From Tenrec ecaudatus (taxonomy: Eukaryota; Chordata; Mammalia; Afrosoricida; Tenrecidae), in the NCBI RefSeq assembly GCF_050624435.1, contig NC_134539.1, positions 141,890,025 through 141,954,024 of the forward strand: 64,000 bases of DNA, written 5' to 3'. A program made the translations under genes and the position numbers. Below the pieces are notes generated by a model. The model saw nothing but the letters and a program-made list of their open reading frames with translations, was not told where the DNA came from and ran no database searches. Positions 15,501 to 24,500 of the stretch are shown piece by piece; positions within the stretch are counted from its first letter, which is position 1, and each line of letters begins with the position of its first letter.

Positions 15501-18500
15501 ATGTATGATTTTTTTAAGTGTTTGGAAGCAAAGATGTCACTTTAACACTAAAATGTGCCTGACCCAAACAATGGTATTTTCAGTATCCTCATACAAACAA
15601 GGAAGACCAAGGAGGAATTATTGACAAAGAATACGGAATATTCTATGGACTCCCAGAACAATGAACAAATCTGTCTTGGAAGAAGTACAGTGAAAATGAT
15701 CCATAGAAGTGAGCATGATGACATTTGTCTCGCATGCTTTGGGCACATTATCAAATGGGGCCAGTACCTGGAGAAGGACTTCATGCTTGGCAAAGCAAAG
15801 GGTCAATGCCAAGGAGGAAGATCCTCAATGAGACGGGTTGACACAATAGCTGCAACCAGAGGAGCAAATATACCGACTCTTGTGAGGATGGCACGGGAAT
15901 TGTCGAGTGCTTTCTTCTGTTCCCATGTAGGGTCTCTGGGTCAAAGAACAGCAATGACATGCAGAAGGAGGGAGCTTCTGGCGAATGCTAACAATTAAGT
16001 GCTTGGGTACTAACTCAAAGGTTGGCGGCTCGAACCCAGTCAGGCTTTTTAGAAGAAAGACTTGGGACATCCCTTCCCAAAGACCACAGTCATAAACCCC
16101 CTACGGAGCATGATTACACTCTCCAGCATATGGGGTCACCATGAGTTAGAATTGGCTCAGTGATACTTGGTTTAGTTTATTCAGGGACACAAGGAGCTAA
16201 GCTAGCATGAAGTAGTAACCATGTAGTAGTTTCACCAAATTATCCGGGTATCTAGGACTAAATGAGATGAAGAGCTGATTTCTGGAATCATCTTATTTTA
16301 TTTGTGGAGTTGGTAGACAAGTGTGATATTTTATCTCTGGGGGTAATGCTCCTAGAATATAGCTGTCCCACTGGAGAGAAGGGAAGTACATTGGGGTTAG
16401 GACTTTGGGTGCCTCTGTCTGGGGTTAGCCTGTAATTTTTTTTTTTTCATTTAAAAAGCTTGACTATGAGTCAGAGTACAAGTCCTTATGTCTTTCCGCA
16501 GATATTTGCTTAGTCTGCCCTAGAATTTTAAAATATTGAAGTATAATTCATAAATCATAAAATTCATGGTACAAAGTACAATTCGGTGAGTTTTATTATG
16601 TTGTACAGCCATTAGCATGTCCCAATTCAAGAACATTTTGATCACTCCAAAAAGAAACCCTGTATCCACTAGCTGTTGCTCTAGATTTTCCTTTGCTCAT
16701 GTCCCTGGCAACCATTCTACTTTCTATCTCTATGGATTTTCCTCTTTGGGACATTTCATAAAAGTGGTATTATACAATACGTGGCCTTTTGTTTGCTTTT
16801 TTTCAATCAGCATAATATTTCCAAGATTCAACCATTAGTACTTTATTCCATCAGTATTGCATTGCTATGGATGAATAATATTCCATCGAGTATATAGACT
16901 GCCTTTTCTTTCTTTATTAAGTCATTAGTCAATGGACATTTGTGTTCTATCTTGTTGTGTGTTATGAATAATGCTGCTATAAATATTCACACACAAGTTT
17001 CTGTGTGAACACATAATTCATTTCTCTTGGTCATATGCCTAGGAGAGAAATGGCAGGTTTGTAAGGTAACTCTATGAATAACTTTTTTTAAAATTAGGGG
17101 CTCATAACAATTTTTATCACACTCGATACACACATACATTGTGTAAAGCACATTTGTATGTTCATTGCCCTCATCGTTCTCAAAACATTTGCTCTCCACT
17201 TAAGCCCCTAGCATCAGGTCCTCATTTTTGCCCCTCCCTCCCCCTTCCCCCCTCCCTCATGAACCCTTGATCACTTATAAATTATTAATTTTGTCATATC
17301 TTGCCCTGTCTGATGTCTCCCTTCACCTGATTTTCTGTTGTCTGTGCCCCAGGGAGGAGGTCACATGTAGATCCTTGTAATCGGTTCCCCCTCTCCAACC
17401 CTCCCTCCCTCTACACTCCCAGTATCACCACTCACACCACTGGTCCTGAAGGGATCATCTGCCCTGATTCCCTGTGTTTCCAGTTCCTATCTGTACCAGT
17501 ATACACCCTCTGGTCTAGCTAGCCAGATTTGCAAGGGAGAATTCAGATCATGATAGTGGGGGGTGGGGAGGGGAGGAAGCGTTTAGGAACTAGAGGAAAG
17601 TTGTATTTTTCATCATTGCTACATCACACCCTGACTGGCTCGTCTCCTTCTGGAGACCCCTCTGCAAGGGAATGTCCAGTGACCTACAAATGGGCTTTGG
17701 GGCTCCACTCTGCACTATCCCCCTCATTCACTATGGTAAAATTTGTTGTTCTGATGATGCCTGATACCTGACACTCATGATCACACAAGCTGGTGTGATT
17801 CTTCCATGTGGCCCTTGTTTCTTCTGAGCTAGATGGCTGCTTGTTTATCTTCAAGCCTTTAAGACTCCAGATGCTATATCTTTTGATAACTGGGCACCAA
17901 CCGCTTTCTTCGCCCCATTTGCTTATGCACCCATTTGTCTTCAGCGATCATATCATGGAGGTGAGCACACAATGATATGATTTTTCTTTCTTTGATGCCT
18001 GATAACTGATCCCTTTGGCACCTCGTGATCACAGAGGCTGGTGTGCTTCTTCCATGTGGGCTTTGTTGCTTCTGACCTAGATGGCCACTTGTTTACCTTC
18101 AAGCTTTTAGACCCCAGAAGCTATATCTTTTGATAGCTGGGCACCATCAGCTTTCTTCACCACATTTGGTTGTTCTCCCTTTTTGTCTTCAGCAGTTGTG
18201 TCTGGACGGTGAGCATCATAGAATGCCAATTTAATAGAAGAAAGTATTCTTGCATTGAGGGAGTACATGAGTGGAGGCCCAATGTCCTTCTGCTACCTTA
18301 ATACTAAACTGATAAATATATTCACATAGATCTATTTCCCCATCCTCATAAATAAATATATTTACATATGTACATGTCTTTATCTAGACCTCTATAATTG
18401 CCCTTTGCCTCCTAGCTCTTTCCTCTATTTCCTTTGACTTCCCTCCTGTCCCACTGTCATGCTCAGTCCTCACCAGGGTTTCAGCAATTCCTCTTGGTTA

Positions 18501-21500: not shown

Positions 21501-24500
21501 AAATGGTCCCAGATCCAGCAGAGACAGGTGGGGGGGGGTGCCAAGGTCAAACCCCAGCTGGCCTCCACTGAGGTAAGCCAAAAGCCCCCAGCCCCTCAAA
21601 ACCCCATGGGTCTGTGCCTACTTATCTTTATGATGCTCCTCCTGCATTCCAGCAGTGTTGAATTTCCCTCTAAACAACTCTCCTGGGCTGAATTCTGCAG
21701 AGTACTTCTGGTATATGTTACTTCATCGCCATCTTCCTGGAAATCCCCAAAGTTTCTTAATATGATGCTGCCATCCATGGCTCTGTAACCCCTACCAAAT
21801 ATTAGGAGGGACCAAGCACATAGGGTGTGTGAAACATTCATGAAGGGATTGGTCAGTTTTAGTTGCCATTCCCTTGTGTATAAGAGAGCTATCTCAGAAG
21901 GAGGGAAAGAGAAATCTCAAGACTATCAAGGAACAAGGACCACCAGAACAAAATGTTCCACAGATGACACATACAACTTTCCTCTAGTTCTTCAGTGCTT
22001 CCTCCCAACCCCCACCACTATCATGACCCAAATTCTACCTTACAAATCCAGCTAGATCAGAGCATATACACGGTAAAGATAAGAGCTTTCAACACAGGGA
22101 ATCCAGGACAGATCAACCCCTCAGGACCAGTAATGAGAGTAGCAATTCCAGGAGGGGAAGGGGAAGGTGGAGGGAGAAAGGAGAAAGAAGGAATCAATCA
22201 CAATGGTTGGCATATAACCACCTCCCAGGGGGATGAACAACAGAAAAGTGGGTGAAGAGAGAAATTGGTCAGTATAAGACATGAAATTTTTTTTATTTAT
22301 TCTTTTTAAATTATTTTTTATTTATTTATTACATTTTATTAGAGGCTCATACTACTCTTATCACAATCCATACATATACATACATCAATTGTATAAAGCA
22401 CATCTGTACATTCCTTTCCCTAATCTTTTTTTTTCTCCTCTTTTCTTTTTTTACATTTTATCAGGGGCTCATACAACTCTTATCACAATCCATACATATA
22501 CATACAGCAATTGTATAAAGCACATCTGCACATTCCCTGCCCCAATCATTCTCAAGAACAATTTTTTTATAAATTATCAAGGGTTCATAAGGGAGGGAGG
22601 GGAGATAATTACAAGCTGATACCAAGTATAAATAAAAATTTTTAAATGATGATAGCAACAAATGTACAAATGTGCTTGACACAATAGATGTGTGGATTAT
22701 AATAAGAGCTGTATGAGACCCACCCCCCAAAAAAATGATTTTTAAAAAAGAAGAGTATGTTTAAGATTCTTGCCTAAAGTACTAGAGGTCTAGATCAGAG
22801 ACTGAGGCAAGGAGATCATGAAATGAGACAGAGCAGAGGAGCAGCATGGAGCAGAGCAACAGGTGGGTTCTGGATCTACAGAGGCAGGAACCGAGGGACC
22901 ATGGACTGAGAGGCTGAGGAACTTGGCTGCTGGCTGAGGAGGGTTGTTGTGATCCAATGATTGTTTTCTGACTCTGATGTATGGAAGCTTGTTAACTTCC
23001 CCAAATAAACCCCCCATAGATGTGAGCTTTTTCGGTGAGTTCTGTGTGACCATTGCAACCGACTCTAAAGCCAGCAGAGAAATTGTAGTACTATGGGAAG
23101 GGTCAGAATAGGATAAAAGAAGTATAGAGGGTGGAAGCATGTCTGACCTCTGCCCTGTGGCAGTCAGCCTTGAGTTGATGGAAAGTTGGATTATTTGTCT
23201 TATTTAGTCAAAGGAGATCAGATGTGGCCCATTTCCTCAGTATCTTTTCTGACTTTTAACCATTCTGTATCCTCTTATTCTGTTTGAACCATTGCTTCTT
23301 GGGGGCTATGTATGGGTTTCAAATAAACACAATTATGTGTTCTGGAATTCCCATTCTTCAAAATGTTATCCATAATTTTTATGATCCACCCAGTTGAATG
23401 TCTTGCGTAGTCAATAAAACACAAACAAACTTTCTAGTATTACCTGGATTCAGCCAAGATCCATTGGACATCAGGTATCAGTAGTAAAAGCTCACATTCC
23501 ACATTCTCTTCTGAATCCAGCTTGGATTTCTGGCAGTTCTCTTGACGATTTATTGAAACAACCACTTTTTAATTAACTTTAGCAAAAATTTACTTGAATG
23601 TGATTTTCATGATATTGCTCAATAATTTCTGCATTCTCTTGAATCACTTCTCCTTGCAATGGACACAGGCAGTTTTCTTTGGCTGGTCAGGAAGTTACCT
23701 CTCAAATTTGGGGTCCTAGATGAGTGCGTTTTGCCAGTGGTGCATATTCACTTCCCTACTAGGAAATTATCAGGGATTCCCAAGACTAGTAAATTTCAAA
23801 CCCTTTAACTTGACAATCAAGAAAATCACATGTCTACTGACATGAGGTAAATAAGTGACATGAGCTTGGTATGAGACGAGAAAAAAATGATGGGAACTAT
23901 GATAGTAAGAAATCTTAGTTGTACGAGCCCCCAATAAAATGATTTGAAAAAGAAAAATCTGAGGTTTCAATTCAAGGGGAAACAAGTTTTTCTACCACTG
24001 CCCATTACTGCTAAGGGAGATAGTTCTTTTGTTCCTGGTCTCTTGACATTCCATAACAAGTCACAAACTGAACATGTATCAATATTTTCATCTATGAAAT
24101 TCTAAAAAAAATTAAATGTTATGTTAGCCAAATGAAACCTTTGGATGTCATTTTTATAATCTCTGTTCTAACAATCAACCCTGGCAATGCCTAATTTTTT
24201 GTGGCTCCCCTGTCTCACTTCATGTACGTCTATCCTCTCCTGTAGCTGAACTGTGCCTTGTCTTCTCGTCTCGCTTGGGCTCTCTAGTGTCTTTGCTCTT
24301 CAACTGTAGACCGCCTTCCTGTTACATGTCAGAGTTGGACTTCTCAAAGCCATCCAAGAGGAACTGTACTTGTCCCTATTTAAAATCTTGGCGGCCCCTA
24401 ACATAGGAAGCCCTTAATAAATATTTGTTTAATTAATTGGTACATAAAGTGTTCCCTTTCTTTTTCTTTGTGTCTCTGCCCACAATGGAACAGAGTGCAG

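Follow-up and report, generated by a model that had tools for sequence, protein, structure and literature searches.

A 64,000-nucleotide stretch of the Tenrec ecaudatus genome (contig NC_134539.1, positions 141,890,025 to 141,954,024; hereafter the window) carries on its minus strand an L1 retrotransposon copy in which the first open reading frame (ORF1) is present and the second (ORF2) is absent. This copy very probably belongs to a genuine ORF2-less L1 lineage, which lost ORF2 apparently once, multiplied in the manner of HAL1 ("half-L1") elements, most likely in trans, and now looks extinct. A single junction between ORF1 and the 3′ untranslated region (UTR) is shared by several hundred sites in the genome, and ORF2-bearing relatives which have diverged to a similar degree possess the same 3′ UTR.

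The junction between ORF1 and the 3′ UTR

Element positions are numbered on the reverse complement of window 17001-22000, element position p being window 22001-p. L1 homology from the 5′ UTR through ORF1 extends, in pieces, over element positions 255-2356 (window 21746-19645), and homology to the L1 3′ UTR resumes almost directly after ORF1, at 2384-4908 (window 19617-17093). The element was compared with 12 young L1 loci of the same genome, picked for an uninterrupted ORF2 frame of 1,283 residues, nine of which (all but L043, L047 and L050) align in the 5′ UTR as well. Against one of them, the full-length L039, identity is 80-83% over element positions 266-2356 and 77-82% over 2384-4908; between these two points L039 contains 3.92 kb (2655-6574) which are absent from the window element. 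Searches with L1 ORF2, both as protein and as DNA, gave no match in 17088-21765, which bears out the original prediction of an ORF1 without ORF2 at this place. Elsewhere in the window ORF2 left a single trace, at 13309-13506, where the protein matches weakly.

Within ORF1, residues 1-305 of the L1 protein align to 20654-19749 with 73% identity, and residues 273-341 align to 19851-19645 in another frame with 67% identity. Because the homology runs on in this second frame to 19645, the ORF1 stop that had been placed at 19740 is an effect of the window copy's own frameshifts; the stop of the family is the TAA at 19632-19630. The Pfam domain Tnp_22_dsRBD (L1 ORF1 double-stranded-RNA-binding-like) was found at 43.6 bits, above its cut-off of 22.2, and Transposase_22 (RNA-binding-like) at 20.4 bits, slightly under its cut-off of 22.4.

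The junction was sought throughout the assembly (3.92 Gb, 2,140 contigs). With window 20100-19300 as the query it was spanned in all 40 scored places, at 100% identity in the window copy, which was one of them, and at 88-91% in the other 39; as the best 40 of 9,514 first-look candidates, these describe the closest matches and not the share of all copies that lack ORF2. Alignment of the window copy with 29 other loci reveals the same junction layout in 30 of 30 rows. A 34-mer laid across the junction, with up to three mismatches allowed, occurs at 480 sites genome-wide including the window copy (reversed control, 0), and the corresponding 34-mer for the ORF1/ORF2 boundary of young L1s occurs, by the same measure, at 2,734 (control, 0). 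The majority of L1 copies thus retain ORF2, but the ORF2-less form is a separate family.

Exact target duplications flank L034 (14 bp) and L026 (11 bp), both of which reach the 5′ end; these are two of the four copies, other than that in the window, which were checked among the 30. The tails of the checked copies are short and degraded. Eight of the 30 loci were counted as reaching the 5′ end, L036 among them through a probable chance match at element position 2, while ten stop matching early within the locus, at positions 539 to 1868, and twelve are undecided, the locus ending first. The exact duplications and the varied 5′ ends support target-primed reverse transcription. It had been anticipated that the junction would prove common to many insertions with target duplications; this held for the junction itself and, with respect to the duplications, for those two copies.

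The family junction reads GAC TTA AAG ATG GAA AGA CTT CAA AGG CTG CTG AGG TAA, with A/C and C/G variants. In young L1s, as well as in the older ORF2-bearing L1s described below, ORF1 typically ends in ATG GAA AGA AGT CAA GAA TGA and ORF2 in ATG AGT CYG CTG AGG TAA, single old copies differing by one or two bases. ORF1, lacking its last codon, continues in frame into the four final codons and the stop of ORF2, and the simplest reading of these sequences would be that ...CAA was joined in frame to AGT CYG CTG AGG TAA, with a few substitutions later. The corresponding L1 breakpoints (marked here by a slash) are typically ...GTCAA/GAATGATACAC upstream and ...AACATG/AGTC downstream. A splice donor and acceptor (GT...AG) were looked for at these breakpoints and none was found; rather than by splicing, ORF2 was more likely removed by a deletion at the DNA level or by a template switch in the course of reverse transcription. 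In the old L1s L064, L074, L080 and L082 the end of ORF1 is followed immediately by a long CA repeat, which is shorter in young L1s; this repeat may have aided the deletion or been irrelevant to it.

ORF2-bearing relatives, age and the state of ORF1

A chimeric query, consisting of the ORF2 tail and the start of the HAL-type 3′ UTR, matched at 90-94% in each of 40 places scored (of 6,959 candidates), nearly always over its full length, and in all ten places fetched the end of ORF2 is followed by the start of the HAL-type 3′ UTR. Of 30 stretches (10 plus a further 20) fetched upstream of such places, six show a recognisable start of ORF1 or ORF2, the remainder presumably being 5′ truncated. With at most one mismatch, a 34-mer across the ORF2 end and HAL-type 3′ UTR was found at 803 sites and the HAL junction 34-mer at 121 (controls 0), a rough ratio, since the two are equidistant from the 3′ end but not equally variable. 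Because ORF2-bearing L1s of the same period and with the same 3′ UTR are the commoner, the proposal that the dominant 3′ UTR family stems from the ORF2-less form is disfavored. The 3′ UTR copies within the window are mixed: the fragment at 3733-4499 is 87% identical to young L1s and 79% to the window HAL copy, which assigns it to the younger L1 lineage, and that at 13533-14710, with a match of 93% in the leading 545 bp, is of the HAL/old-L1 type. A fragment near 29806, which had been taken for a piece from just after ORF1, matches element positions 3977-4033 and 4230-4908 (window 18024-17968 and 17771-17093), and is distal 3′ UTR from more than 1.6 kb downstream of the junction.

Over 367 bases of the 3′ UTR, the mean distance to the majority sequence of each group is 6.4% for the HAL copies (30 loci; range 4.6-8.4%), 5.4% for old L1s (10 loci, found with a HAL-type query) and 1.3% for young L1s (12 loci). 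Only 1.4% separates the HAL majority from that of the old L1s, and each differs from the young majority by 16.8%. A tree was built from 600 columns of 29 of the 30 HAL loci, nine of the 12 young L1s and four old L1s. The HAL copies make up one side of a branch with support of 92/86, recovered, with one change allowed, in 96% of 200 bootstrap trees from a bootstrap that had not settled. The inner HAL branches are very short, the HAL end branches mostly measure 0.025-0.06, and the stem of the young L1s measures 0.066. From the one junction and the one branch we infer a single deletion event.

At an assumed rate of 2.2e-9 changes per site and year, which is not calibrated for this animal, the 6.4% divergence would be equivalent to an age near 30 million years. 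Among the sampled loci, which were picked by likeness to the window copy, the closest to the majority lies at 3.7% in the ORF1 part (25 loci) and at 5.7% in the 3′ UTR part (30 loci). A query joining the young-L1 ORF1 end to the 3′ UTR start yielded 4,621 candidates, and among the 40 of these that were scored no contiguous match exceeds 84%: 15 places are contiguous at 81-84% and HAL-like, and 25 are half matches at 100%, being the ORF1 half of young L1s. A young ORF2-less derivative is disfavored because such a copy, if among the candidates, should have outscored both classes. The HAL-type family looks extinct, a few younger copies being possible, and the original description of the lineage as active, set against these distances and the result of the young-junction query, is not supported.

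The majority ORF1 frame of 29 HAL loci contains no stops and two unreadable codons. Outside CpG sites, the ratio of nonsynonymous and stop variants to synonymous variants is 2.44 (22 to 9) for those occurring in at least five copies, compared with an expectation of 3.67; it is 4.30 for variants in three or four copies, 3.36 for those in two and 4.33 for singletons. The HAL and young-L1 majorities differ by 55 to 36 such changes. The only ORF1 indel in at least five copies is a 3-base deletion (nine copies), to which realignment adds a shared 2-base insertion (five copies), and 1-base indels are found in three or four copies at three places. Variants present in at least four copies number 4.3 per 100 columns in ORF1 vs. 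6.7 in the 3′ UTR, but singletons differ too (58 vs. 69). As far as sequence variation can tell, this pattern gives at best a weak hint that ORF1 was retained after the loss of ORF2. Antisense to ORF1, nine of the 12 young L1s, L039 included, exhibit a long open frame of 230-272 residues, possibly a mere mirror of codon use.

Origin of the lineage and competing explanations

We propose that an old L1 subfamily would have lost some 3.9 kb in a deletion that took the last codon of ORF1 and stopped four codons short of the ORF2 stop, leaving the L1 5′ UTR, a nearly complete ORF1 with a handful of ORF2 codons at its end, and the L1 3′ UTR. This form was copied several hundred times, its RNA most likely being reverse transcribed in trans by the ORF2 protein of a contemporary, nearly identical L1 subfamily and inserted by target-primed reverse transcription. 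The family now looks extinct, and the window retains one mutated copy reaching the 5′ end. The original suggestion of a HAL1-like element mobilized in trans is the best reading of the data: the element was amplified as such, and the step in trans is most likely.

A number of points weigh against this account. Mobilization by the L1 ORF2 protein was itself not observed, and neither L028 nor L029 nor the window copy exhibits a clean target duplication. Of the ten early 5′ ends, three fall close together at element positions 815-833 and may represent a variant 5′ UTR instead of truncation. With regard to the relatives, ORF1 was long enough for the tree in only four of the 30 upstream old-L1 stretches, the bootstrap was, as stated, unsettled, and the old L1s in the 3′ UTR comparison are biased towards HAL by the query that found them.

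The alternative that ORF2 was deleted privately, in the window copy alone, has next to no probability. It would agree with the fact that the majority of ORF1-containing L1 copies reaching this region carry ORF2 (2,734 young boundary sites), a situation which the original prediction had coupled to a private deletion, but recurrence of the junction at 480 sites and in all 40 scored places contradicts it, and with the layout shared by all 30 aligned rows and the single branch it was rejected. The nearly exact loss of ORF2 at both of its boundaries would also be compatible with its having been spliced from L1 RNA as an intron, perhaps repeatedly, like the spliced integrated retrotransposed element (SpIRE) insertions of human L1; we consider this unlikely, given breakpoints without GT...AG and examined copies whose one junction and one branch give no sign of recurrence.

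Alternatively, segmental duplication, in place of retrotransposition, might account for most of the junction copies, and L018 and L025 do lie only 49 kb apart on contig C22. The listed junction sites are, however, on many contigs, their 5′ ends differ and two copies have target duplications of their own, which makes this explanation extremely improbable. Continued activity of the lineage is very unlikely, as is the idea that most 3′ UTR fragments were donated by it: the window is rich in such fragments, of both the HAL/old-L1 and the young-L1 types, but no sampled copy comes nearer to the majority than the distances given above, no contiguous young derivative emerged from the scored places, and ORF2-bearing L1s are the more frequent carriers of the shared 3′ UTR. 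The genuine ORF2-less lineage, amplified as a HAL1-type family, is the explanation that we retain.

Features of the element and known HAL1 families

The coordinates of the features are collected in Table 1.

Table 1. Features of the ORF2-less L1 copy, in window coordinates.
Feature	Coordinates	Strand	Remarks
Complete ORF2-less (HAL1-type) L1 copy	17088..21765	-	5′ end ~21765-21746, 3′ end ~17088
L1-type 5′ UTR	20655..21765	-	L1 homology in pieces, from element position 255; start near GGGGATTTCCAGGAAGATGGCG
ORF1, frameshifted in the window copy	19645..20654	-	L1 ORF1 protein alignment and Pfam
Junction: four final ORF2 codons plus the ORF2 stop, in frame with the ORF1 end (AGG CTG CTG AGG TAA)	19630..19644	-	
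Long L1 3′ UTR, ~2.5 kb, of the type common to ORF2-bearing L1s	17093..19629	-	
Internal direct duplication, ~195 bp, in the 3′ UTR	17774..18215	-	BLAST

The duplicated units of the 3′ UTR (17774-17967 and 18022-18215) are 248 bp apart and 83% identical according to BLAST, though Tandem Repeats Finder reported nothing on the element; young L1s and HAL loci show the duplication too, in the form of secondary matches. A poly(A) signal had been described at the 3′ end, but neither AATAAA nor ATTAAA occurs in element positions 4501-5000 of the window copy. About 200 bp past the 5′ end of the element lies a further L1 3′ UTR fragment, in the opposite orientation (21963-22286). Elsewhere in the assembly, contig C152 contains several L1 reverse-transcriptase matches with equal frame length and one TGA (four at 1,170 residues), suggesting that a single L1 copy was duplicated locally.

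It is conceivable, at a little under even likelihood, that the element represents a separate and undescribed origin of HAL1 in the lineage of this mammal, one characterized by near-exact removal of ORF2, a new four-codon tail on ORF1, a rise beside the L1 parent to approximately one in eight copies of this type, and death with the parent while a later L1 family took over. No literature on this family was found among the titles and opening parts of abstracts listed, and it may be in print, or in Repbase, under another name. The phenomenon is already known, and the present family is a well-resolved further example of ORF1-only L1 derivatives, which have arisen repeatedly. The presence in one genome of ORF2-bearing relatives of the same age, an exact junction and a later L1 family allows one to ask why loss of ORF2 pays when ORF1 is kept.

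HAL1 elements are described as L1-derived, multi-copy and possessing ORF1 only, with target duplications and a dependence on the enzymes of full-length LINEs (PMC5753468, PMC5322556, PMC3627910); several independent origins within the mammals are attributed to them (PMC5753468, PMC5322556). The guinea pig HAL1 is said, in a report from Bao and Jurka, to have kept ORF1 for ~29-44 million years (PMC3627910). SpIREs, according to PMC5860796, owe their deletions to splicing and are generally unable to jump again. They too are L1 insertions with an internal deletion, whereas in the present case the breaks lack splice signals and the shortened element went on to multiply.

Judged on its anatomy, the element is a HAL1: it resembles those described in its L1 origin, ORF1-only layout, multiple copies and target duplications. 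Compared with HAL1s by their description, and not by Repbase sequence, it may be distinguished by a 2.5-kb 3′ UTR and by the four final ORF2 codons at the end of its ORF1. The HAL1s of guinea pig and marmoset (HAL1-1H_Cpo, HAL1-1C_Cja and others; PMC3183009) are likewise lineage-specific families; they are tabled there as young, at less than 1% from their consensus, whereas the copies of the family described here lie ~6% from their majority.

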